From contig CALVUM010000030.1 of the NCBI GenBank assembly GCA_944363605.1, positions 1-38,163 on the forward strand: 38,163 bases of DNA. Reading direction: 5' to 3'. This document shows, in pieces, positions 19,908 through 36,205 of the stretch. Under the pieces are notes generated by a model. That model was not told the DNA's origin and did no database searches. It saw only the letters and a program-made list of their open reading frames with translations. The position numbers and the translations under genes are program-made. The stretch comes from an uncultured Bacilli bacterium. GTDB lineage: Bacteria; Bacillota_I; Bacilli_A; RF39; UBA660. Every line of letters starts with the position of its first letter. The stretch's first letter is position 1.

Positions 19908-20744
19908 ATGGAAGAGAAACGATGGGATTCTAGTGTGAATGAATATGAAGAAATATATCAATCTAGTAGTTATAGAAAACAACTGGAATGGGATATGGCT
20001 ATAGGACTACAGCAGGTTGATAACTTGAAGCCTTCTAAATATTTAGAACAAATTAGTGAGAAAAATATTTTAGGAGAATTAACCCTAGAAGAAGTAGAAC
20101 AAAGTTTAAAAGAATATTATATTGAAAAAGAAAATCAAAAGGATATCAATTATAATGAACTAGAATGTGACTTTGTATCTATAAGAATTGTAGAATTGTT
20201 GAGTTTTGATAATTTTGATTTATCAGTCGATTATTTAAGATATATTCATAAATATTTATTTCAAGATGTTTATGAGTATGCAGGAGAGTTTCGAAAAATT
20301 AATTTTTCGAAACACGAAAAAATATTAAATAATGATTCTGTTGCTTACGGAGACTTTAAAACATTAACAGAATCATTAGAATATGATATTAGTTTAGAAA
20401 AAGAGAAAAATTATAAGGAAATGTCTATTGTAGAAGTAATTACAAATATTGCCGATTTTTCTTCTAGTATATGGCAAGTACATCCTTTTAGAGAAGGAAA
20501 TACTAGAACAACAGCAGTTTTTATAGAAAAATATTTAATAAGTTTAGGATATAATGTAGATAACTCATTGTTTAAAGATAAATCAGTATATTTTAGAAAT
20601 GCATTAGTTAGAAGTAATTACTTTAATAATTATTTAAATATTAAGGAAGATAAAAGTTATTTAATTAAATTTTTTGAAAATTTATTGTTAAGTAAAAGTA
20701 ATAATTTGAATTCTGAAGATTTAATTATGAAAGAATTCTTTTAG
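19908..20744 (+). CDS. Fic protein with an N-terminal VbhA-like antitoxin segment
   Basis: A 278-residue protein. The Fic core contains VHPFREGNTRTTAVF, an exact HPFx(D/E)GNxR motif with catalytic His, and the upstream YAGEFRKINFS flap region, so AMP (or other NMP) transfer to protein hydroxyls is expected. Residues about 27-72 (LEWDMAIGLQQVDNLKPS and on to LGELTLEEVEQSLKEYY) look like the VbhA antitoxin domain fused in front, making it self-inhibited. The inhibitory (S/T)xxxE(G/N) helix appears as LxxxDN (D38, N39), so the inhibitory Glu is Asp. No separate antitoxin gene is adjacent. The start has AAGAGG upstream. Its position next to CRISPR suggests a defence or stress role. Confidence 0.8.
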   Translation: MEEKRWDSSVNEYEEIYQSSSYRKQLEWDMAIGLQQVDNLKPSKYLEQISEKNILGELTLEEVEQSLKEYYIEKENQKDINYNELECDFVSIRIVELLSFDNFDLSVDYLRYIHKYLFQDVYEYAGEFRKINFSKHEKILNNDSVAYGDFKTLTESLEYDISLEKEKNYKEMSIVEVITNIADFSSSIWQVHPFREGNTRTTAVFIEKYLISLGYNVDNSLFKDKSVYFRNALVRSNYFNNYLNIKEDKSYLIKFFENLLLSKSNNLNSEDLIMKEFF

Positions 20745-21284: not shown

Positions 21285-22043
21285 TTTTAGATTACACTAT
21301 GTTAAAATTCAAACCATTCCAGATACCTTTTTTGTAAATTTGACACCTATCTTTAAATTACACTATGTTAAAATTCAAACTTTGTCTACTTGTTTAATCA
21401 CCTTAGCTGAATTTGTCTTTAAATTACACTATGTTAAAATTCAAACCAAAAGCTTAATTGTTTCCATTTCTTTTTTCTTGATGTCTTTAAATTACACTAT
21501 GTTAAAATTCAAACCCACACGCTTTGCCAACCCCACCAGCATTTTTTTTACTTTAAATTACACTATGTTAAAATTCAAACTATTAATAATAATGAAATTG
21601 AAAATGAATTTACGAATCTTTAAATTACACTATGTTAAAATTCAAACCCATTTAATCGCACTTTTTATTGCAGAGAATGCCATCTTTAAATTACACTATG
21701 TTAAAATTCAAACTGAGCCTGCAGTGTTTTCTGCAGAGTTTAAATAATCCTTTAAATTACACTATGTTAAAATTCAAACAAGGCAAAGTCAATGTACTAT
21801 CAAAAACAAAATCCACTTTAAATTACACTATGTTAAAATTCAAACTTCTTCAAGAATCTTAGATGTTATTACATTTTAGAGCTTTAAATTACACTATGTT
21901 AAAATTCAAACTAAATACAAGTCAGCAATATTACAGTAGATATGAAACTTTAAATTACACTATGTTAAAATTCAAACATCAGGAAATATAAAGTGTAGGA
22001 TTTCACTAACACTCTTTAAATTACACTATGTTAAAATTCAAAC
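21285..22043 (-). CRISPR. CRISPR array 1: 12 repeats, 11 spacers, read leftward
   Basis: Repeats of 30 bp begin at 21285, 21351, 21417, 21485, 21551, 21618, 21684, 21750, 21816, 21882, 21948 and 22014, with spacers of 36-38 bp. In the direction set by the leader (minus strand) the repeat starts GTTTGAATTTTAACATAG and ends TGTAATTTAAAG, so the likely 8-nt crRNA handle is ATTTAAAG. The leftmost repeat has two changes, as expected for the old, leader-distal end. All 11 spacers appear different. Confidence 0.97.
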
Positions 22044-22183
22044 CCGAAAATTCACAACATTTCAATGAATTTTCATCTAAAATATATCATATAACTACAT
22101 AAAATTCCACAAAATTCTATAATCTATCTATAAATATCTGTCGATCCCCAGTACTTTTTGCAAGATTAACAGTCGACAGACTA
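22044..22183 (-). promoter_or_regulatory. Leader of array 1
   Basis: About 140 bp nearly identical, in inverted orientation, to 30289-30428. It includes an 8-bp inverted repeat TCTGTCGA (22137-22144) / TCGACAGA (22173-22180) placed exactly 93 bp from the first repeat, as in array 2. It should hold the array promoter and the adaptation signals. Confidence 0.85.
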
Positions 22184-22199
22184 GATTGAGTAGAGATTA

Positions 22200-22248
22200 G
22201 TTAGAACGTTTATGTTAGATGTTAATTGTTTTTGTTAGACGTCAATTG
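22200..22248 (+). repeat. Direct repeats upstream of the crRNA-like gene
   Basis: GTTAGATGTTAATTG (22214-22228) and GTTAGACGTCAATTG (22234-22248) differ at two bases and are 20 bp apart. A partial third copy (GTTAGAACGTT) starts at 22200. They lie just upstream of the extended -10 promoter and could be an operator. Confidence 0.5.
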
Positions 22249-22255
22249 AAAAATA

Positions 22256-22264
22256 TGATATACT
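22256..22264 (+). promoter_or_regulatory. Extended -10 promoter of the crRNA-like RNA
   Basis: TG-A-TATACT (22256-22264) matches an extended -10. The -35 is poor. Transcription would begin near 22271, inside the first degenerate repeat but before its hairpin. Confidence 0.55.
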
Positions 22265-22386
22265 TTTTTTGTCGTTGCATAGTGCAATTTAAATTCAATG
22301 TATAAAAAAAGATTTTTTTTATAATCATTACATAGTGTAATTTTTGTTTGATTAATTTCTCATAATTTTATTGAGAAATTTTTTTT
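22265..22386 (+). ncRNA. CreR-like crRNA analogue predicted to repress the cas promoter
   Basis: Repeat-like 1 (22265-22294) and repeat-like 2 (22318-22347) each match 21 of 30 positions of the CRISPR repeat. Both contain CATAGTG, and their stems are perfect (TTGCA-TAG-TGCAA and ATTACA-TAG-TGTAAT). Repeat 1 keeps seven of eight handle bases (ATTTAAAT); repeat 2 keeps the hairpin but not the handle, as expected for a single crRNA-like unit. The 23-nt spacer begins TCAATGTATAAAAAAAGAT. It matches the minus strand of the cas promoter at 16 of the first 19 positions, next to CCT. A terminator closes the unit. Known cas-regulating RNAs act this way with Cascade; the function here is inference. Confidence 0.75.
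22354..22386 (+). terminator. Terminator of the crRNA-like RNA
   Basis: AATTTCTCA (22354-22362) pairs perfectly with TGAGAAATT (22372-22380), followed by a T run to 22386. Confidence 0.9.
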
Positions 22387-22414: not shown

Positions 22415-22443
22415 TTGACAGTTTTTATGTTTTATTATATATT
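22415..22443 (+). promoter_or_regulatory. Promoter of the cas operon
   Basis: Perfect TTGACA (22415-22420), a 17-bp spacer, and TATATT (22438-22443). The start would be near 22450, with cas6 translation from 22466. Confidence 0.85.
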
Positions 22444-22448
22444 GAAGG
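22427..22448 (-). promoter_or_regulatory. Predicted target of the crRNA-like RNA, with CCT motif
   Basis: On the minus strand, CCT (22448-22446) is followed by TCAATATATAATAAAACAT (22445-22427). This matches the crRNA-like spacer except at positions 6, 12 and 17; beyond position 19 the match ends. The site covers the -10 of the cas promoter. Type I-B systems often use CCN-type PAMs. Confidence 0.65.
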
Positions 22449-22465: not shown

Positions 22466-23200
22466 ATGAAATTAGAAATTATATGGAAACTGGATGGATA
22501 CCTATTAAATAAAGATTATCGTTCAACTTTTTATTCTTTTTTTAAACAAATTTTGGATGAAGAAGATCATGAAAAGTATTTGGAATTATACGGAAAAAAA
22601 GATGCTAAGGTTAAAAGTTTTTGCTTTTCAATTAAATTAGATAATCCTCATTTTCATTCTGATGACGTTATGGTAAGTAGTGATGTTGTTAAAATGTATA
22701 TTCGAAGTTGTGATGAGATAGAACTTTATCAGTTTTATAATAGTTTTCTACAGGCATATAAGAGTCATAAGTTGTTTCCTATGCATATGAATCAAGCTAG
22801 GATAGTAGGTGTTAAGCTACTTCCATTAAGACCAGCTTCGGCTAAAACATTGTACGTTAAATTTTTAGCGCCGTTAGTGGTAAAAGAACATGATATAGAA
22901 ACAAATAGAACTACTTATTATACATATGAAGATGAAGCATTTTTTGATAATTTGAAAAGTGTAAGCAAAAATATTTCTGAAGTTTTAGGGTATACATTAG
23001 ACTTTGATGGTTTTGAAATAATTCCTGTAAATCCAGAAAAAACAGTTGTTTCTGTGTATAGCATTCAGATACCAGTTAGTATGGGAAGCTATATTTTAAA
23101 AGGAAATGAAGATTTGTTAAATTTCTTGTACAATAAAGGTATGGGATATTTAACGTCAAGTGGATTCGGGGTTTTTGAGATATTAGGAAAGGAGCAGTAA
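22466..23200 (+). CDS. cas6: Cas6 pre-crRNA endoribonuclease
   Basis: A 244-residue protein with the RAMP-type ferredoxin fold. The C-terminal glycine-rich loop GMGYLTSSGFGVFEI (about residues 225-239) is characteristic of Cas6. It cleaves at the base of each repeat hairpin to give crRNAs with an 8-nt 5' handle, and should also process the crRNA-like RNA just upstream. The start follows GAAAGGAG. Its TAA overlaps the ATG of cas8 by one base (TAATG). It is the first gene of the eight-gene cas operon, immediately behind the proposed self-targeted promoter. Confidence 0.93.
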   Translation: MKLEIIWKLDGYLLNKDYRSTFYSFFKQILDEEDHEKYLELYGKKDAKVKSFCFSIKLDNPHFHSDDVMVSSDVVKMYIRSCDEIELYQFYNSFLQAYKSHKLFPMHMNQARIVGVKLLPLRPASAKTLYVKFLAPLVVKEHDIETNRTTYYTYEDEAFFDNLKSVSKNISEVLGYTLDFDGFEIIPVNPEKTVVSVYSIQIPVSMGSYILKGNEDLLNFLYNKGMGYLTSSGFGVFEILGKEQ

Positions 23201-24848
23201 TGAAAGAGGAAGTTGTATTCGACTTAGGTAGCTTTGAAACGAATGCAGGTATTTTAGGATTGATTCGAATGCTTGAATTTGATAAGGAACATAGCGCAGG
23301 TAAGTATCATTATAAAGGCGAAGAATCTTTGACAGTTGATAAAGAATATTTGATGAGTACAGATTTAACGGAACTTTTTATGAAAACGTTAATTTCGTTA
23401 GAAGAAAATACTGGTAAATATCCAAAACTCTTATCTGAATTAAAACGATTTTACGATATTTTGCTTGAACGAGATTTAGAGAAGGAAGAAAGAAAAAAAC
23501 TTGGAGAATGTCTAGATTCTTTATGTGCAAATAGTTACAAGGGTGCATATGTTGTTTTAAAAGAAAAATACTCTTATCAAGATGATTTATATGAACTTAT
23601 TAAGTCTTTGAAAAATGAAAAAGATAGGGAAAAGCAACTAGAACTTTTGAAAACAATTTTAGAGATTTTGAATGATACGGAAATCTATGATACTTTATTT
23701 TTTCGTGAACTTGTGTATAGTCGAATAAATAAGTTTTGGGATGGAGTAAGTTTTTTAAATCGAAATAATGCTAAAAAGGAAATGAAACTTATTCATTACG
23801 AAACTTTTGAGAAAGGTTTTAAAGAATATTTGAACTCGTCTTCAAAAAAAGTAGCAATTTGTGAAGAGTGTGGGGAGCCAATTGGCACAACTGAGAAAAT
23901 AGATTATGGTTTTTTGAAAGGAACTACTGCTGATACTTCAAGAAAACGGAATGACTTTTGGAACTATAAAGTCAATTCATGGGTTTGTCCAAAATGTGCA
24001 TTCTTATTTTCCTTAATGCCTTTAGGATTTCAAAAAAATCGAACACATTATTTATTTGTGAACGTTAATCATAATGTAGGCGATATGGTCAAGGCGAATC
24101 TAGAAAAAATTGTTGATGAAAATAAGGATGCTGTTGAATTATATCATGAAGCTTTACTTGATTTCGTTCAGCAAGAAACAAAAGTTTTGGATAATATTGA
24201 AGTTATCGAAGCGGGAGTATATGAAAAAAGATATCGAGTTAATGTGATTCAAAAAGAAGCCTTGGAAATTATAAAAAAAAGCGAAGAAAATTTAAAAAAA
24301 CTTTTAGGGTGCTATGATATAAAAGTCGATAATGGCTATCTTAACTTATATAATGAAGTTATAGGTAACATTGTGGGATTTAGAGATAATTATTCTTTAA
24401 TTTATTTGATTTTAAAACAAGGATTAGCAGATGGAAAATCTATTTATCCGGCATGGCTTATTTTGAAAATTCAATATCAGATTTCGTTAAAAAGAAAAGG
24501 AAGTGATTTAGAAATGAAAAATGATTTAGATACAGCACAATGGTTAGGAGAACAATTAAGGCTTGCTATTTTTAAAGCAAAGCAAACGAATGACCCAAAG
24601 GTACTTAATTCATTATGCTATAAGCTTTTAAATGCTATACATATTAATGATTTAGATACTTTTGTAAACATGGTTCTTAGGGCGTGTAAGAGCTATGAAG
24701 CAACTGTTCCTGTTTTATTTATGCAGGCTTTAAAAAATCATGAGAATTTTAATGATTTAGCTCATGCATATCTTATGGGATTGATGTATGATAAAAAATA
24801 CGATAAAAAAGAAACTATGGAAAATGTAGAAAAAGGAGTGGATAATAT

Positions 24849-24852
<4 letters not shown>
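23200..24852 (+). CDS. cas8: Cascade large subunit Cas8, Cst1-like with zinc ribbon
   Basis: A 550-residue protein with two zinc-binding pairs, CEEC (Cys221 and 224) and CPKC (Cys263 and 266), the CXXC-CXXC pattern of Cst1-type Cas8 from the Tneap variant of type I-B. The rest is helical and divergent, as usual for Cas8. It should recognise the PAM and hold the crRNA 5' handle. It overlaps cas7 by four bases (ATGA). Assignment rests on the zinc motif, size and position between cas6 and cas7. Confidence 0.87.
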
Positions 24853-26397
<1,545 letters not shown>

Positions 26398-26400
26398 ATT

Positions 26401-28542
26401 ATGAAAGATTATTTAAGAGTCGGAAAAATTTATGATGATACTTTTTTAGCGAAGGAAGATGAGTCTTTACGTGTGCATACAAATAATGTTTTAGAGAAAG
26501 CTTCAGAGCTTATTCATATTTACGGACATTGTTTCACGGATAAAGAAAAGACTCTTCTTTTGCTTGCTTGTGAAGTTCATGATTATGGTAAAGTTAATGC
26601 TTTATTTCAACAAAAGATAAGAGAGCATAAAAAACAAATAAATGGCGAGGTTTATCACAATTTTTTAAGTCCTCTTTTTTTGGATTTTGGAAAATTGAGT
26701 TGTGATTTTGATAAGACAGATATTAATAATTTAGTCACGGCTGTGTTTTATCATCATACTAGAGATTTTAAACAGGCTATACTAAATGTTGAGTATTTTG
26801 AAAAATATTTAAAAGAGAATATTAAAAAGTGTTTTCATACAGATTTAACTTGGCAAGGTTATTTGGGTAGGGTTTTATTTATGTATCCTAATGTCTCTGC
26901 TCGAAGTAATTTTGATTGGACAGGTTATGCTAAGTTAAAAGGACTTTTACAAAAGTGTGATTATGCTGCTAGTGCGCATGTCGAGGTTACCGAGATTTAT
27001 CATCGAGAAAGTAGAGAGATATTTTTACAAAACATTCATGAAAAAATACCTACATTACGGGTATTTCAGAAGTATTTAGAAGAGAATCAAGATAAGAATA
27101 TTGTCGCAGTAGCGCCGACAGGTTCAGGAAAAACGGAAGGTTCTTTTCTTTGGCTTGGCAAGGAGAAGGGCTTTTATACGTTACCTTTAAAAGTTGCATC
27201 GAATGCAATTTATAAGAGAGCTAGGGAATTATATGGCTATGATGAAGTTTCATTACTTCATTCAAGTGCTTTAGATATTCTTATGGAAGAAGGGCTTGAG
27301 GGTCGCTTTGAAATTACTAAAAATTTAGGATATCCGCTTACTATTACCACAGTAGATCAGTTGTTCAAATTTACTTTTAAAGCTCTTGGCCATGAAATTT
27401 TATTTGCAACTTTAACTTATGCGAAGGTTGTTATTGATGAAATTCAAATGTATTCTTCGACGATTTTGGCTTGTTTACTGGTTGGTCTTGGATATCTTGT
27501 TAAGCAAGGTGGAAAGTTTTTGATTACAACGGCTACTTTGCCACCTCTTTTTTTAGAATATTTAGATCGTTTCGTTGGGGCAGAAAATTATGAAAAACCA
27601 GCGCCTTTTTTAGAAGTATCAGCTGAGAAACGACATTATATTTTGGTTGTTCCGGATGATTTTCAGTATTCGCTTATTGTAGAACAAGCTTTAAATCATA
27701 AAGTTTTAGTGATTTGTAACACAGTAAAAAGAGCTCAAGAAGTCTATCAAATTTTACGAGAACAAATAGAGAATGTTTATTTACTTCATAGTCGTTTTAT
27801 TAAAAAGGATCGATTTCGGCTTGAAAATGACATTTGCAATTTTGATGGAATTGGCATATGGGTAACAACACAGGTTGTAGAAGCAAGTTTGGATATTGAT
27901 TTTGATATTTTGCATACCGATATGGCTCATATTGATAATTTGTTTCAGCGAATGGGAAGATGTTATCGTAAACGCAATTATGAAGGGGATAAGCCTAATG
28001 TCTATATTTATGATTCGAAAGTTGGATTACGAAAAAAAGGAAGTACTAAAGGAATTTATGATGAAGATATTTATTTAAGCTCGTTAGAGGAATTAATGAA
28101 GTATTCGGATAGTTTTTTAACAGAGAAAATAAAATATAGGATTATCCAAAACATTTACAATCGTGAAGCTTTAAAAGGAACTACATATTTGAATGACTTA
28201 GATAAGAAAATCTACTTGTTAGAAAATAGTTATCCAGGTGAGTATTCGAAAATGGAAGCAGATAATCTATTTAGAGATATTACCAGTTACACTGTAATTC
28301 CGGAGCCTGTTTATGAGGAAAATATTAATTTGTTTCAAGATTTGATGCAACAATATAATCAAGCAAAAGGATTAGATAAACTAAAAATTAAAAACAAAAT
28401 TTTGGATTATTCGGTTGCTGTTCCTTCTTACTATAAACAATTTATTGATAAGAACGAATTATTGCCTGGACTTAGTCGGGCTCGAGTTTTGTATGATGAA
28501 AAGTTAGGTGTCGTTTATGAAGAATACAACAATCAATTTTGA
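26401..28542 (+). CDS. cas3: Cas3 HD nuclease-helicase
   Basis: A 713-residue protein. The N-terminal HD domain has H60-D61 in EVHDYGK and YHHTRDF. The helicase part has Walker A APTGSGKTE (near 239-247), motif II IDEIQMY in place of DEAH, motif III TTATLP, motif V TTQVVEASLDIDFD and motif VI QRMGRCYRKR. It degrades DNA marked by Cascade. All motifs look intact, so interference should be functional. It overlaps cas4 by 26 bases. Confidence 0.95.
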   Translation: MKDYLRVGKIYDDTFLAKEDESLRVHTNNVLEKASELIHIYGHCFTDKEKTLLLLACEVHDYGKVNALFQQKIREHKKQINGEVYHNFLSPLFLDFGKLSCDFDKTDINNLVTAVFYHHTRDFKQAILNVEYFEKYLKENIKKCFHTDLTWQGYLGRVLFMYPNVSARSNFDWTGYAKLKGLLQKCDYAASAHVEVTEIYHRESREIFLQNIHEKIPTLRVFQKYLEENQDKNIVAVAPTGSGKTEGSFLWLGKEKGFYTLPLKVASNAIYKRARELYGYDEVSLLHSSALDILMEEGLEGRFEITKNLGYPLTITTVDQLFKFTFKALGHEILFATLTYAKVVIDEIQMYSSTILACLLVGLGYLVKQGGKFLITTATLPPLFLEYLDRFVGAENYEKPAPFLEVSAEKRHYILVVPDDFQYSLIVEQALNHKVLVICNTVKRAQEVYQILREQIENVYLLHSRFIKKDRFRLENDICNFDGIGIWVTTQVVEASLDIDFDILHTDMAHIDNLFQRMGRCYRKRNYEGDKPNVYIYDSKVGLRKKGSTKGIYDEDIYLSSLEELMKYSDSFLTEKIKYRIIQNIYNREALKGTTYLNDLDKKIYLLENSYPGEYSKMEADNLFRDITSYTVIPEPVYEENINLFQDLMQQYNQAKGLDKLKIKNKILDYSVAVPSYYKQFIDKNELLPGLSRARVLYDEKLGVVYEEYNNQF

Positions 28543-29023
28543 TTTAGGGGGCTTGGCTTTTTCTTATAGTGTGATGTGTCCTAGAAAATTATGGCTATAT
28601 TGTAATCATATCCAATTTGAAAACTTTAATGAGAATGTAAAAATCGGTAAAGAAATAGAAGAAAATTATTATTTGCGAGAAAAAAAGAATGTTTTAATTG
28701 ATGGCATAAATATTGATTTTTTTAAAGATGGTGTTGTTTTTGAAGTGAAAAAAAGTTCTCATTCTAGGGAATTTGCTTTGCTTCAATTAAAGTACTATTT
28801 ATATGTTTTAGAAAAAAAGGGTTTTTCTAATGTGAAAGGTGTACTTAAAATTCCTGAGGAACGAATTACAGAAGAAATAATTTTGGAACCTGATGATGTA
28901 GCTTTTATTGAGAATAAACTGATAGAAGTATCAAAGGTGCTAAGTGGTTCAATTCCTAAGGTAGAGAGGAAAAAGATTTGTAGTAAGTGTGCTTATTATG
29001 AATTTTGTTTTGTAGAAGAATGA
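28517..29023 (+). CDS. cas4: Cas4 adaptation exonuclease
   Basis: About 168 residues. The four cysteines of the Fe-S cluster are visible: one in SYSVMCPRKLW and three in ICSKCAYYEFC near the C-terminus. The nuclease core shows GVVFEVKKSSHS. It trims prespacers and selects PAM orientation for Cas1-Cas2. The ATG at 28517 is preferred over the GTG at 28508 because AGGTG is correctly spaced before it. Its stop TGA overlaps the ATG of cas1. Confidence 0.92.
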   Translation: MKNTTINFDLGGLAFSYSVMCPRKLWLYCNHIQFENFNENVKIGKEIEENYYLREKKNVLIDGINIDFFKDGVVFEVKKSSHSREFALLQLKYYLYVLEKKGFSNVKGVLKIPEERITEEIILEPDDVAFIENKLIEVSKVLSGSIPKVERKKICSKCAYYEFCFVEE

Positions 29024-30011
29024 AAAGTCTTATTATATTTTTAGTAGTGGAGAACTAAAGAGAAGAAATGATTCAATTACTTTAACTAGTGAAGATTTAG
29101 TTAAAAAAAATATACCTGTAGAAAGAATTAAGGATTTACATATTTTTGGGAATGTGACTTATAATTCAAAACTATTTGATTTTGTTTCACAATATGGGAT
29201 TTTAATTCACATGTACAATTATTATGGTTATTATTCAGGGACATTTTATCCTAAAGAAAAGTATGTTTCAGGTAAATTGTTAGTGAAACAAGTGGAAAAC
29301 TATATTGATTTGTCTAAGCGTTTGGTTATTGCCAAAGAGTTTATAGTGTCGGCTAGTTATAATATTCTTCGGAATTTGAAATATTATCAAAATCGAGGAA
29401 AGGATTTACAGGATTATATTGAACGTATAGAAGAGTTTCGAAAGCAAATTTCGGAAACTAATTCTATTGAAGAATTAATGGGAGTTGAAGGTAATATTCG
29501 AAAGGTTTATTATGAGTCTTGGAGTATTATTATTAATCAAGATATTGATTTTGATAAGAGAGTGAAAAGACCTCCTGATAATATGATTAATTCTTTAATT
29601 TCTTTTTTAAATACGATCATTTATACGAAAAATTTGAGTCAAATTTATCAAACTCAATTAAATCCTACTGTTAGTTATTTGCATGAGCCTTCTGATCGAC
29701 GGTTTAGTTTAGCTTTGGATGTATCGGAAATATTTAAACCTTTGATAGTGGATAGAACAATTTTTTCTTTACTGAATCGAAATATAATTTCAGAAGCAGA
29801 TTTTGAGAGTGATTCAAACTTTTTGAAGTTAAAAGATTCAGCTCGAAAAAGGGTACTTCAGGAATTGGGGGAGTGTTTATCAAGGACAATACAACATCGA
29901 AGTATTAAAAGAAAGGTAAGCTATGAGCATCTTATTAAGTTAGAACTTTATAAACTGATTAAATATTTTATTGAAGATGAACCTTATAAAGGGTTTAAGA
30001 TTTGGTGGTAG
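29020..30011 (+). pseudogene. cas1: cas1 with a one-base frameshift at its start
   Basis: The Cas1 frame reads EKSYYIFSSGELKRRN, then VERIKDLHIFGNVTYNSK, GILIHMYNYYGYYSGTFYP, the metal residues in LMGVEGNIRK, YLHEPSDRRF and LALDVSE, to a stop at 30011. The natural ATG at 29020 overlaps cas4 (ATGA), but ATG-AAA-AGT runs into a stop after 12 codons. One extra A would give MKKSYYIFSSGEL and a normal 330-residue Cas1. In-frame alternatives are an ATT at 29037 with a weak ribosome site or a GTG at 29154 that removes about 45 residues. Cas1 is the spacer integrase, so adaptation may be lost. Confidence 0.8.
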
Positions 30012-30012
30012 T

Positions 30013-30291
30013 ATGTATGTTGTTTTAATTTATGATATTAAACAAGTTGGAGATTATCAGAAAGTTTGGCGATTGGTTTATAAGGAATGCAAGAAATATT
30101 TGTATCATGTACAAAATTCTGTTTTTGAGGGAGAGCTATCTAAAAGTCAATTGTTTACACTTAAATTTAAGTTAGAAAAGATATTTCGTAAGGATTTGGA
30201 CTCATGTATCGTTTTTAAATCTAATAATAGTCGTTGGTTAGATAAGGTTTATATTACTGAGCAAAGGAATGATGATTATCAGTTTATTTAG
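30013..30291 (+). CDS. cas2: Cas2 adaptation subunit
   Basis: Ninety-two residues starting MYVVLIYDIKQVG, the normal Cas2 N-terminus with the conserved Asp after strand 1. FEGELSKSQL matches the family's second strand. It bridges two Cas1 dimers for spacer integration. It begins one base after the cas1 stop; longer starts inside cas1 lack support. The TAG stop is the first base of homology shared with the leader of array 1. Confidence 0.93.
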   Translation: MYVVLIYDIKQVGDYQKVWRLVYKECKKYLYHVQNSVFEGELSKSQLFTLKFKLEKIFRKDLDSCIVFKSNNSRWLDKVYITEQRNDDYQFI

Positions 30292-30428
30292 TCTGTCGAC
30301 CGTTAATCTTGCAAAAAGTACTGGAGATCGACAGATGTTTGTGAAAAAGATTATAGGATTTTGTAGAAAATTATGTGGTTCTATGATATATTTTAGATGA
30401 AAATTCATTGAAATGTTATGAATTTTCG
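30292..30428 (+). promoter_or_regulatory. Leader of array 2
   Basis: Inverted near-copy of 22044-22180. It contains TCTGTCGA (30292-30299) and TCGACAGA (30328-30335), exactly 93 bp before the first repeat. A TTGTAG and a TATGAT separated by about 17 bp may be the array promoter. Confidence 0.85.
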
Positions 30429-31183
30429 GTTTGAATTTTAACATAGTGTAATTTAAAGGCATTAAATTAACCAATTCAACCATAAATTCAACAGGTTTGA
30501 ATCTTAACATAGTGTAATTTAAAGGTTCTCACAAAAACGATATCAAAATGCAATATAGAAGTTTGAATCTTAACATAGTGTAATTTAAAGTTTTTTTATT
30601 GATTTCTTCGCAAGCTCTTTGTCTAGGTTTGAATCTTAACATAGTGTAATTTAAAGCTGTATCGGCATCAATCTGCGTAGGGTATTTATAATAAGTTTGA
30701 ATCTTAACATAGTGTAATTTAAAGGGGCTTATGGAAATTGATATTATAAACACTTTAGAGTTTGAATCTTAACATAGTGTAATTTAAAGCTGCTTGAATT
30801 TTAGTTCCCGCAACACTTGCGAAAGTTTTAATCTTAACATAGTGTAATTTAAAGTAATGAATTAGGTACTTTAGACAACCATTCAAACTCGTTTGAATCT
30901 TAACATAGTGTAATTTAAAGGTTAAAGCAGTAATGAAAGCGCTAAAATCAACTACAGTTTGAATCTTAACATAGTGTAATTTAAAGCACGCAAAAAGAAT
31001 ATATTTAAATTATTTTAGAAAAGTTTGAATTTTAACATAGTGTAATTTAAAGTCTTTTTTGATACATATCATCAACTATTTTTTCAGCGTTTGAATCTTA
31101 ACATAGTGTAATTTAAAGAAATTATGTATCGGAATTGTCCCATTTTCATTTTTGGCTGAATCTAAACATAATGTAATATCTAT
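30429..31183 (+). CRISPR. CRISPR array 2: 12 repeats, 11 spacers, read rightward
   Basis: Repeats of 30 bp begin at 30429, 30495, 30561, 30627, 30695, 30760, 30825, 30891, 30957, 31023, 31089 and 31154; spacers are 35-38 bp. Most repeats have GTTTGAATCTTAAC, while the leader-proximal one and that at 31023 have GTTTGAATTTTAAC, as in array 1. The repeat at 30825 has GTTTTAATC. The last repeat is heavily degenerate, marking the distal end. Confidence 0.97.
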
Positions 31184-32106: not shown

Positions 32107-33519
32107 ATGACAAAAAGAAATAATAAGCATGAAAAAAGACTTAGAATGCTTATTTTAGCTGTAGTAGTTTGTACTTTTATTTTAGGCGCATCTACTTATG
32201 CATGGTTCATTGGAATGCGAACTGTTAATGTTTCTAGTTTTGATGTTAGTATTGCTACAACTGAGAGTTTAATGCTTTCAATCGATGGAAAAACATGGAC
32301 AGAAAATTTAACAATTAATGGCGAAAACTATAATACTGCTGCTTATACTGGCAATACAAATAGCTGGGGTGGCGAAGATGGTTTAATTCCAATGAGTAGT
32401 ATTGGAAAAATTGACACTGCCGCATCAAGAATGATTTTATTTGAAAAAGGAAGCTTTACTGCATCTGATGGCGGATACCGTTTAATGGCTAGTCAAGTTA
32501 AAAATGGCGAAGCTGATGGTGGCGAAGCTGATGGTTATGTTGCTTTTGATTTATTCATTCGTAACATGTCAGGAAATGAATATTATGAAGAAGTTGATTT
32601 CTTAAATGAAGAGGCAATTTATCTAACACCTGGTTCTTCTGTTAAAGTTTCAGGAGCTGGAGCTGATAAAGAAAAAACCGGTATTGAAAATTCAGTACGT
32701 GTTGCTTTCATGCAAGTTGGTCGTGTAAAATCTGATGTAGCTGAGGGAGATATTACAGGAATTACCTGTACAGATGAAGGAGCTGTTTTAGGTATTTGTG
32801 ATGATCGTGATGCAACTATTTGGGAACCAAATGATACACAACACGTAGATAATGCAATTAATTGGTATAATACGGCTTGTAAGAAAAGAACAGGGGCTAC
32901 TTTAACTGCGGATGATGCTTATACAGCTGAAGCATGTAATGCAGTAGTTAATGGTACATATTCTAAAACTTATGCTGTTAGTGGAGTTATTGATTATACA
33001 AATAACGTAGATAATTACGATGGAATTGAATACAATGGATATACAGGTTCAATTGCTAGTGAGGCAGCTGCTGGTAAATTAGTTGGTGTTGATACATTTA
33101 CGGATTCAGAAAAAAATTTACAAAGTACAGCTCGTCCTGAATTTATTCGTTTAGCGCCTAATAGTATTACGAAAGTACGTGTATATATCTGGCTTGAAGG
33201 TCAAGATGTTGATAATTATGATTTTGCTCAATTAGGACGTCAAATTTCAGTTAATTTCGGATTTACGAAAGAAAGATTCTATGGTGAAGATATTGATTAT
33301 GAAGGACCAGAACTTCCAGATGATGTTCAAAAAGATATAGCTACACAAGCATATTCAGCAGAAGATACAGTTGAATTTATTTCTGATAGCTATGTAACTT
33401 ATGCTGATGGTAATTTCAGTATTCCAAGTTGGATTACAACATTCTCATTTAAAGATGGCGATAAGAGAGTATTAGCAACTAAGAGTGTTGACACTTGGAC
33501 ATTTAATGATATAGATTAA
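32107..33519 (+). CDS. TYAWF-motif surface protein, paralogue A
   Basis: A 470-residue protein. A basic tail and one membrane segment end in ASTYAWFIGMRTVNVSSFDV, followed by an extracellular domain with TESLMLSIDGKTW, VAFDLFIRNMSG and the C-terminal RLAPNSITKVRVYIWLEGQD. Extracellular Cys residues are present (for example ITCTDE and NTACKKR). The membrane-proximal motif resembles that of TasA/camelysin fibre proteins, but a long uncleaved anchor is possible. It is a clear tandem paralogue of the next gene, including a stretch of about 36 identical bases near 33150. Frequent CGT and GCT codons suggest high expression. A structural surface role is inference. Confidence 0.8.
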   Translation: MTKRNNKHEKRLRMLILAVVVCTFILGASTYAWFIGMRTVNVSSFDVSIATTESLMLSIDGKTWTENLTINGENYNTAAYTGNTNSWGGEDGLIPMSSIGKIDTAASRMILFEKGSFTASDGGYRLMASQVKNGEADGGEADGYVAFDLFIRNMSGNEYYEEVDFLNEEAIYLTPGSSVKVSGAGADKEKTGIENSVRVAFMQVGRVKSDVAEGDITGITCTDEGAVLGICDDRDATIWEPNDTQHVDNAINWYNTACKKRTGATLTADDAYTAEACNAVVNGTYSKTYAVSGVIDYTNNVDNYDGIEYNGYTGSIASEAAAGKLVGVDTFTDSEKNLQSTARPEFIRLAPNSITKVRVYIWLEGQDVDNYDFAQLGRQISVNFGFTKERFYGEDIDYEGPELPDDVQKDIATQAYSAEDTVEFISDSYVTYADGNFSIPSWITTFSFKDGDKRVLATKSVDTWTFNDID

Positions 33520-33538
33520 AATATAGAAAGGGTAAAAA

Positions 33539-35035
33539 ATGAAAAAACACAATGAAAAACATAGTAAGAAAATAAGAAATTTAGTGGTTATTTGTTTATT
33601 GTGTGGAATCGTTTTAGCAGCTTCAACGTATGCATGGTTTATTGGAATGAGAACTGTTAACGTTTCTAGTTTCGATATTAATATTGCATCAACTGAAGGT
33701 CTATACTTATCCATGGATGGTGAGAGTTGGACATATAATCTTGATGTTGCTAATGCACCACAATATGCTAATAACGCGAATAAACTTGCTGATGTTGAAT
33801 TAATTCCAATGAGTAGTGTTGGAGATATGGATAAAACTTCATCAAGAATGAAACTTTATGAAAAAGGTAGTTTAACTGCAACTAAAGGTGGTTACCGATT
33901 ACTTGCTAGTCAAGTAAATAACTATACAAACAAAGTTGCAGATACTAATGAATATATTGAAGGTGACGGTTACGTAGCATTTGATTTATTTATTAAAAAT
34001 TTATCTGGCGAAGAATATTATGTAGAAAATAATCCATTAAATGAAGAAGCAATTTATTTAACTACAAATTCTTCTGTAACTGTTGCAGAAGCTGGCGGAG
34101 TTCCTAACACAGGAATTGAAAACTCTATTCGGGTTGCTTTTGCACAAATCGGACGTGTTGAAGCTAATACAGAAAATGTTTCAAATATTACAAAGATTAC
34201 TTGTTCTGATGTAGCTGCTACTGATGATCAAGTTCAAGTAACGGGTATTTGTCGTAGTGCTCAAATTTGGGAGCCAAATGATAAAGCACACGTTCAAAAT
34301 GCTATAAATTGGTATAACACAGCTTGCGATAAGAGAACAAGTGATGATGTAAATGCAGACGCGTCTTATGCAGATCGTGCTGAAGATGCTGAAGATACGA
34401 CAACATGTAATGCTATTACAAACGGAACTGCTTCTGCTACTTATGCAATAAGTCGTGAAATCATTGTTGGAGACAACGTTAATATTTATGACGGAACAGC
34501 TTATAATACTTATGCAAAAAATACAATTGATTATGCTACTTATATTGCTGCTGAAGAGGATGCTAGAGATGGCTATAAATTAGTTGAATATCCATACTTT
34601 ACAGATACAATGAAAGCTTTAACAGGAATAGATCGTCCACAATTTATGACATTAGCGCCTAATAGTATTACGAAAGTACGTGTATATGTTTTCTTAGAAG
34701 GTCAAGATATTGATAATTATGACTTCGCTCAATTAGGAGCAAAGATTTCTGTTAATTTTGGATTCACGAAAGAAAGATTTACTGAAAATGATGTTAACCA
34801 TGAAGGTCCATCTACAGATATTACTGAAGGCATGACTTATTATAATGCTGTTGGAGATGTAGTAGTTACAACACCAGATTCAGGAATCACTTATAACGCA
34901 GATACTCATTACTTTGTTATTCCAGCTGAATTTAAAAATAACTTTACATTTACAGATGATGGAACAACTTATACAGCAACTTATTCATTAGTTGATGGTA
35001 ATGATACTTGGACAATTGCTAAACAAACGCCTTAG
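33539..35035 (+). CDS. TYAWF-motif surface protein, paralogue B
   Basis: A 498-residue protein with the same order of elements as its upstream neighbour: membrane segment ending in ASTYAWFIGMRTVNVSSFDI, TEGLYLSMDGESW, VAFDLFIKNLSGEEYY, EPNDKAHVQNAINWYNTAC, and TLAPNSITKVRVYVFLEGQD. It has an Asp/Ala-rich insertion around residues 265-290 and an extra C-terminal beta-like segment. A hairpin terminator after it (35041-35082) may reduce transcription of the last three genes, giving the two large proteins a stoichiometric excess. The start has AAAGGGT upstream. Confidence 0.8.
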   Translation: MKKHNEKHSKKIRNLVVICLLCGIVLAASTYAWFIGMRTVNVSSFDINIASTEGLYLSMDGESWTYNLDVANAPQYANNANKLADVELIPMSSVGDMDKTSSRMKLYEKGSLTATKGGYRLLASQVNNYTNKVADTNEYIEGDGYVAFDLFIKNLSGEEYYVENNPLNEEAIYLTTNSSVTVAEAGGVPNTGIENSIRVAFAQIGRVEANTENVSNITKITCSDVAATDDQVQVTGICRSAQIWEPNDKAHVQNAINWYNTACDKRTSDDVNADASYADRAEDAEDTTTCNAITNGTASATYAISREIIVGDNVNIYDGTAYNTYAKNTIDYATYIAAEEDARDGYKLVEYPYFTDTMKALTGIDRPQFMTLAPNSITKVRVYVFLEGQDIDNYDFAQLGAKISVNFGFTKERFTENDVNHEGPSTDITEGMTYYNAVGDVVVTTPDSGITYNADTHYFVIPAEFKNNFTFTDDGTTYTATYSLVDGNDTWTIAKQTP

Positions 35036-35040
35036 TAAAA

Positions 35041-35082
35041 AAAGAGGAGTAAGGCAAGAAAGTTTCCTTACTCTTTCTTTTA
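35041..35082 (+). terminator. Internal terminator in the surface operon
   Basis: AAAGAGGAGTAAGG pairs with CCTTACTCTTT (one bulge), followed by CTTTT. It lies between paralogues B and C and is probably partial. Confidence 0.65.
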
Positions 35083-35104
35083 ATCCATTAAAGGGGTGAG
35101 AAAT

Positions 35105-36205
35105 ATTACAAAGAATACCGCAAAGAAAAAAAGTATAGGTTCTAAGAAAAATACCCAAACTAAAGAAAGGTTTAGAGATAAAAAAAACTTTAAACTGACT
35201 ATTGCGTTAATTGTACTTTTTGGATTATTGTTTATTTTTTCAACTTATGCTTGGTTCTCATCAAGTTTAAATGTTCAAGTGCGTACGTTTAATGTTGTAG
35301 TAGATCGAACAAGTGGACTTTTCATTTCTTTAGATGGAATAAATTTCGATAGTTCTGTAGAAATTAATTTAAATACAGTAATTCGTGATTTACGGGCAAC
35401 TTATCCTAATCATACAAATCAATGGGCAACTAATGGTCTTACACCTGTCTCTTCTAATGGAATTACAGATTCTAATAGTCCAGAGTTTAATATGTTCGCG
35501 AGCAATGGAGTTTTGTATTACAAAAGAGATCAAAATCGCGAGAATGGTTTTGTAACAACGGAGCAAATTGTAGAAACAGAACCTAAAGAGTATGCTTATT
35601 ATATTGCCTTTGATTTATTTTTTCAAAACATTACCGGTTCGCCTGTAAGTGATAATCTTTATTTAGATTATAGTTCTTCTTTTATTATGAATGCGGATGC
35701 TTCTGAAGAAATGCAAGGACTTGGGAATTCCGTACGTTTTGGAATAGTACGAATTGGCAGTACCAGTAATAACTCACCAGCTAATGTTGTTCAAAACATT
35801 TCTTGTAATGGACAATGTGAATCTATAATTTATGAGCCAAATAGCCGAAATCATACAAATTTGTCTATTGAAAGGGCAAGTAAATATGGCGTGAATTTAG
35901 TAAATGGCGAGCGTTTTTCCACTTATGCTTTTCAAAGAGCAGGTGGACCAATATATGTAAAAAATACTGTATCTGGTTCAGAGAATTTAGATTTAAATTA
36001 CTTTAGTTTACAAAATACTATTACTGAAGAAAATTTAGATGAACCACTTTTTCAAGTTCCAGATGGGATTACTAAAACACGGGTTTATTTGTGGATTGAA
36101 GGACAAGATATTGATAGTTTAGAAACAGAGTCTGAAGGAGCAGAATTAACAGTTTCAATAAACTTTACAAAAGATACTTTAGGATATAATACTTTTGATG
36201 AATAA
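35105..36205 (+). CDS. TYAWF-motif surface protein, paralogue C; probable ATT start
   Basis: About 366 residues. After a basic N-terminus and one membrane segment (LTIALIVLFGLLFIFSTYAWF) it has RTFNVVVDRTSGLFISLDG, YIAFDLFFQNITG and the terminal ITKTRVYLWIEGQDIDS, so it is a diverged third paralogue with a shorter middle. The only canonical start, GTG at 35096, lies inside the AAGGGGTGAG ribosome site. ATT at 35105 is spaced eight bases from it and gives TKNTAKKKS after the initiator, similar to MTKRNNK of paralogue A. I therefore prefer ATT. Surface location is by family resemblance. Confidence 0.75.
   Translation: MTKNTAKKKSIGSKKNTQTKERFRDKKNFKLTIALIVLFGLLFIFSTYAWFSSSLNVQVRTFNVVVDRTSGLFISLDGINFDSSVEINLNTVIRDLRATYPNHTNQWATNGLTPVSSNGITDSNSPEFNMFASNGVLYYKRDQNRENGFVTTEQIVETEPKEYAYYIAFDLFFQNITGSPVSDNLYLDYSSSFIMNADASEEMQGLGNSVRFGIVRIGSTSNNSPANVVQNISCNGQCESIIYEPNSRNHTNLSIERASKYGVNLVNGERFSTYAFQRAGGPIYVKNTVSGSENLDLNYFSLQNTITEENLDEPLFQVPDGITKTRVYLWIEGQDIDSLETESEGAELTVSINFTKDTLGYNTFDE

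Follow-up and report, generated by a model that had tools for sequence, protein, structure and literature searches.

A type I-B CRISPR-Cas locus of an uncultured Bacilli bacterium carries, between the CRISPR leader of its left array and cas6, a pseudo-repeat unit that most probably (we put this at about 0.88, judging from its sequence) encodes a CreR-type cas-regulating RNA acting as an autorepressor. CreR is a cas-regulating RNA, reportedly described by Liu and colleagues in Cell Host Microbe in 2023, through which Cascade represses the operon encoding it. The anatomy of the unit, the significant match between its guide and the cas6 promoter as well as comparable matches at other loci are direct observations of the present analysis. 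It is the guide and its target, both overlooked in the preliminary description of this DNA, that would explain the unit.

The locus, the unit and its target

The window, i.e., the whole stretch of 38,163 nucleotides that was analysed, harbors the locus with one array on each side (Table 1). The leaders of the two arrays are related, 22075-22186 being 88% identical to the reverse of 30286-30398. The array repeat is GTTTGAAT(C/T)TTAACATAGTGTAATTTAAAG, present in two variants, and ordinary spacers have a length of 35–38 nt. An Rfam scan of the window revealed two tRNAs and nothing else. Left of the left array lies a gene of the Fic/DOC family (19908-20744, Pfam E = 5.9e-13), for which no link to the guide was found, and at 32107-36205 three tandem related proteins with a common N-terminal STYAWF motif are encoded.

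Table 1. Features of the type I-B locus and of the pseudo-repeat unit (window coordinates)
Feature	Position	Strand	Remarks
Left CRISPR array	21285..22043	-	12 repeats, reads leftwards
Possible unit promoter	22236..22264	+	TAGACG-17-TATACT, TG before -10 (extended -10); 9/12 consensus bases
psiR1, degenerate repeat	22265..22294	+	perfect stem 22275-22287; 5' handle 22287-22294
psiS, guide, 23 nt	22295..22317	+	length set by ungapped psiR2 alignment
psiR2, degenerate repeat	22318..22347	+	perfect stem 22327-22341
Terminator-like hairpin	22354..22386	+	9-bp AT-rich stem, then T run
cas operon promoter	22415..22443	+	TTGACA-17-TATATT; 11/12 consensus bases
Guide target	22429..22448	-	CCT PAM 22446-22448; 17-nt protospacer 22429-22445 spanning the -10 box
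Operon cas6-(cas8)-cas7-cas5-cas3-cas4-cas1-cas2	22466 to 30291	+	
cas6	22466..23200	+	NCBIfam TIGR01877, E 4.2e-24; first gene of the type I-B operon
Putative cas8	23200-24852	+	named by position alone; family search gave no match
Right CRISPR array	30428..31118	+	11 repeats, reads rightwards

The whole feature extends from approximately 22236 to 22386, together with the target at 22429-22448, and is wider than the stretch from 22265 to 22347 considered previously. Here, ectopic degenerate repeats outside the array, adjoining the cas genes, flank a guide. The last 8 nt of psiR1, ATTTAAAT, represent the Cas5 handle and agree with the array repeat in seven of eight bases. The second element, psiR2, was placed by its best ungapped match to the repeat; its body is identical in 17 of 22 positions and its handle in 4 of 8, meaning that the handle is lost.

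Upstream of psiR1 a possible promoter is present, although promoter-like sites occur in the unit region at background level (three found versus a shuffled mean of 4.0). Downstream of psiR2 follows the terminator-like hairpin, which a first terminator scan requiring at least three G-C pairs had missed. Given this possible promoter and the T-run hairpin, the unit could therefore be an independent transcript ending before the cas promoter, and possibly it constitutes a complete small transcription unit of promoter, psiR1, guide, psiR2 and terminator. On the -35 side of the possible promoter, three direct copies starting with GTTAGA are located at 22200, 22214 and 22234, two of which extend to GTTAGA(T/C)GT(T/C)AATTG and are perhaps operator sites. 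Furthermore, the guide and the start of psiR2 (22300-22322) form an A/T palindrome, for which a 10-bp RNA hairpin is predicted.

The guide begins with TCAATGTATAAAAAAAG; read on the reverse strand, the cas6 promoter contains CCT and, immediately after it, TCAATATATAATAAAAC. Over positions 1-17, mismatches are restricted to 6, 12 and 17, and the matches comprise positions 1-5, 7-11 and 13-16 as well as 18 and 19. If positions 6 and 12 are left out of the first 17, 14 of the 15 counted positions match. In 200,000 shuffles of the guide, the probability of an equal match beside any of the six intergenic CCW sites was P = 5e-6, and moving the guide register by offsets of -6 to +6 gave at most 9/15 everywhere but at offset 0. 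An exact PAM-plus-target site with the pattern CCWTCAATNTATAANAAAA occurs once in the assembly (1,521,064 bases, 69.5% complete), namely at the cas6 promoter. A 21-nt identical stretch at G000:C75 was considered to be due to chance, since it apparently lies in coding sequence (judged by eye).

That CCT would serve as the PAM is deduced from comparable units and from C. difficile, whose type I-B PAM is given as YCN/CCN in the cited part of the source (PMC8406132), and not from protospacers of this organism. Comparing the left-array spacers with 50,697 phage records yielded 18 Campylobacter phage hits, single pieces of 80% identity at E = 5e-3, which were regarded as noise. The right-array spacers gave only weak AT-rich matches outside the own genome among the 291 genomes of the family, and part-spacer patterns covering 5 of at least 21 spacers had 0 matches in viral contigs.

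Units in other cas6-upstream regions

The survey started from the top 80 relatives of Cas7 found in genome contigs, which led to 77 loci with a Cas6 hit. The 75 loci with at least 150 nt upstream of cas6 and the window make up 76 regions, picked by Cas7 similarity and not at random. Each region was scanned for a handle-like octamer and, behind it, a guide with a match to a CCW-flanked site within the same region. A unit was detected in 27 regions at 13/15 or better, in 19 at 14/15 or better and in 11 at 15/15, the window included, in comparison to 0–4, 0–1 and 0 regions, respectively, in ten runs with shuffled guides; hits inside arrays were dropped in the survey, the shuffled controls being run without that filter. 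Two of the 27 regions appear to be an array artefact (L037) and a chance hit (L066), neither of which reaches 14/15.

Among the 19 units at 14/15 or better, the PAM is CCA in 11 and CCT in 8, the scan permitting CCW only; in an earlier scan open to all four CCN, every retained unit still had CCA or CCT. This earlier scan produced 35 raw hits versus 6, 0, 1, 10 and 4 for the wrong-PAM controls (array hits counted in both). Removal of eight array self-matches (L037, L038, L043), an overlapping self-palindrome in L108 and a second target in L049 left 25 units, two of which (L093, L105) fell below 13/15 in the later CCW scan.

All eight core mismatches in the 19 units are located at positions 13, 16 and 17, although any of the 15 positions could mismatch; position 6 is matched in 9 of the 19 units and position 12 likewise in 9. 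In a leave-one-out match profile, positions 1-5 and 7-11 carry a bias, since the CCN scan demanded matches there. Exchanging guides between regions gave a score of 14 in none of 1425 swaps and of 13 in one. The guides fail on foreign regions, and guide and target thus co-change locus by locus. In 15 of the 19 units, no more than 250 nt separate the target from cas6 downstream of it; in L044, L049, L067 and L111 the distance is larger. Between unit and cas6, a gene for a WYL-type regulator was observed in L067 (1216-2458) and L115 (1301-2346), both assigned by Pfam, and by look in L081 (1223-2324); the guide target is upstream of the WYL gene in L067 and just upstream of cas6 in L081 and L115.

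Two type I-B loci from one uncultured Bacilli bin (L042:1520-2448 and L044:1510-2468) contain a DUF3800 gene (Pfam E = 2.7e-13 and 2.1e-13) and, directed away from it, a psiR1-guide-psiR2 unit, the guide of which matches a CCT/CCA-flanked site 40 nt upstream of the start of the gene. Possibly this is a pair similar to CrePA, in which the protein under control would be DUF3800; in the literature, CreTA together with DUF3800 was not found among the matches listed. Such a function has to be weighed for the window as well, where an antitoxin RNA of the CreTA/CrePA type would repress a linked toxin, RNA or protein, instead of or besides the cas genes. Its anatomy would be identical in kind to that of the window unit, and in L042 and L044 the target of the unit is indeed a gene other than a cas gene. 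However, the cas6 promoter is the sole exact target in the 69.5%-complete assembly, and between unit and cas6 there is no ORF of at least 80 aa, although a small RNA toxin might lie in the roughly 80 nt present there. We therefore regard an antitoxin function as quite unlikely and an autorepressor of the CreR type as the preferred reading.

Within the genus, Cas1 (E <= 0.001) was detected in 3 of 36 genomes, the own genome included. An order-wide Cas7 search was positive in 3 of 385 genomes and a family-wide Cas6 search in 5 of 291, again counting the own genome; searching the genome contigs at first with Cas6 only had been without result. The two other operons of the same genus, G297 (L012/L037) and G300 (L038), encode a Cas7 78–79% identical to that of the window. 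Upstream of cas6 the unit was found in neither of them, and conservation within the genus is thus lacking. Nor did inspection by eye reveal a unit upstream of the Cas6 genes in the family loci L013, L014 and L015. In G300, 36 copies of an unrelated 36-nt repeat are located directly upstream of the I-B cas6 (L038:132-2460), and its I-B array sits on a separate contig.

Pseudo-repeat stems and recognition by Cas6

The perfect stems TTGCA-TAG-TGCAA in psiR1 and ATTACA-TAG-TGTAAT in psiR2 are present as they had been described, and the same applies to the stem of the array repeat around TAG, which is either an uninterrupted ACA/TGT of 3 bp or a bulged TT-A-ACA/TGTAA. Predicted RNA energies amount to -4.1 kcal/mol for psiR1 and -3.0 kcal/mol for psiR2 versus -0.2 and -1.6 kcal/mol for the two repeat variants. 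In comparison to dinucleotide shuffles, z values of -1.7 (psiR1) and -1.2 (psiR2) were obtained, 14 and 25 of 200 shuffles, respectively, folding equally well or better. When all possible double substitutions are introduced into the 18-nt repeat core, 4.5% of the resulting variants have a perfect stem of 5 bp or more and 0.29% one of 6 bp or more; one deletion plus two substitutions results in at least 5 bp in 5.8%, and random AT-rich 18-mers reach this in 3.1%. The joint frequency of at least 5 bp in psiR1 and at least 6 bp in psiR2 is approximately 2e-4, a product of two variant frequencies selected post hoc. The combined stem gain is hence unusual, but it was picked after the fact.

In the other units, stem gain is not a consistent feature. 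For the 18 units whose cognate repeat is known (window included), psiR1 folds more strongly than this repeat in 4, equally in 3 and more weakly in 11, and the in-register stem of psiR1 is longer in 6, equal in 10 and shorter in 2. For psiR2 it is longer in 4, equal in 7 and shorter in 1 of 12 units, the 6 of 18 units with a body identity below 60% being left out. Folding energy and stem length disagree in direction, so stem gain has no general rule. In-register stems of 5 bp occur only in the window (psiR1 and psiR2) and in psiR2 of L069. Within the array repeats of the clade, ACA/TGT is kept and the outer 5' arm varies (CTTAACA, CTAAACA, TTAAACA) versus a constant TGTAA, without compensation.

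The preliminary description had taken the improved pairing as a sign of selection for Cas6 processing. This argument is unproven, since 4–6% of similar random changes yield a stem of at least 5 bp and the other units are inconsistent. The elements themselves have nevertheless very likely been selected as a crRNA-like RNA, the processing of which would require Cas6; this selection is indicated, instead of by the stems, by the guide-promoter match (P = 5e-6), the asymmetric retention of the handle and comparable units in 18 other regions (0–1 in shuffled controls). The same three observations speak against a decaying leftover of a CRISPR array, in which stems and guide match would both be due to chance. 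Degenerate repeats are common at array ends, the frequency of stems after random change would fit and close relatives are devoid of the unit, yet with this guide match we consider a leftover very unlikely. Even less likely, and highly improbable, is a reading in which a transcription factor binds the palindromes as DNA operators and the hairpins of the RNA are incidental. Both are perfect inverted repeats with a common TAG centre upstream of the cas promoter, as operators might be, but the likeness to the CRISPR repeat reaches past the palindrome into the psiR1 handle and the psiR2 body (17/22), and the guide match would be left unexplained.

In the 77 Cas6 sequences of the survey set, the column of residue 42 (window 22466-23200), presumably the place of the catalytic His in other Cas6 proteins, is occupied by Tyr (71 sequences) or Phe (6 sequences), and Lys is found at column 50 in 76 of 77. 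The closest solved structures to the window Cas6 by sequence are PH0350 and a related entry (3qjj, 3qjp, 3ufc), where we take PH0350 to be a Pyrococcus Cas6. PfCas6 wraps unstructured RNA according to the cited part of the source (PMC9458426), and Cas6 may thus recognise the pseudo-repeats by their stems, although this is unproven. Tentatively, and with considerable doubt, one may suppose that the pseudo-repeats lost the 5' part of the repeat and gained stable stems, Cas6 reading the regulator by shape and the array repeats mainly by sequence. If this were the case, the affinity of the regulator for Cas6/Cascade would be separate from that of ordinary crRNAs and would fix the set point of the feedback.

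Proposed mechanism and known systems

For the CreR-type reading we infer transcription, cutting by Cas6, Cascade binding, repression and release. The unit would be transcribed from its own promoter, Cas6 would cut both pseudo-repeats of the RNA and the retained 5' handle would load it into the type I-B Cascade, which would then be led to the cas6 promoter beside the CCT PAM. Pairing would extend over approximately the first 16 nt only, positions 6 and 12 taking no part in it, and we propose that due to this limited pairing Cascade would stop RNA polymerase at the -10 box and leave the chromosome intact. Free Cascade would keep the operon down, and crRNAs or anti-CRISPRs drawing Cascade away would release it.

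With this, the type I-B cas genes of an uncultured lineage of Bacilli would be subject to RNA-guided autoregulation, and the survey suggests that about one quarter of the examined cas6-upstream regions (19/76) carry a unit fitted to the own locus. The match profile (1-5, 7-11 and 13-16 paired, 6 and 12 idle) might serve as a cheap sequence test for such regulators, and the natural units represent material for asking which minimal pairing suffices for repression without self-cleavage.

Among known systems, CreTA is comparable in its anatomy. As far as the cited part of PMC9458426 describes it, psiR1 retains the Cas5-binding handle and psiR2 has largely lost it, so that CreA and the window unit share two degenerate repeats, one with and one without a handle. 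No conserved hairpin is seen for haloarchaeal CreA units in the same part of that source. In the cited passages on CreA, toxin repression was lost upon mutation of any of positions 1-5 and 7-11, and positions 6 and 12 were neutral (PMC8501985); the window guide pairs at 1-5 and 7-11, and has mismatches at these neutral positions. In contrast to CreA, which targets a toxin promoter, the target in the window is the cas6 promoter. CrePA is likewise presented, in the cited passages, as a crRNA-like repressor RNA that relies on the CRISPR effector (PMC12737573), but the window target is without a protein toxin, and L042 and L044 with their DUF3800 genes look closer to CrePA.

CreRs are described in the cited parts of two sources (PMC12737573, PMC13131331) as crRNA-like regulators of type I and V-A systems that act as repressors of the cas operon and are generally not accompanied by a toxin. 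In its sequence features the window unit resembles them: it would encode a crRNA-like RNA, adjoins the cas genes, has no toxin and displays a partial complementarity to the cas promoter next to a PAM. Type I-B is among the types reported for CreR in these passages. The window unit differs in the perfect stems of both pseudo-repeats. The host lineage and the sequence of the unit are new, and the kind of self-regulation, that of CreR, is already known.
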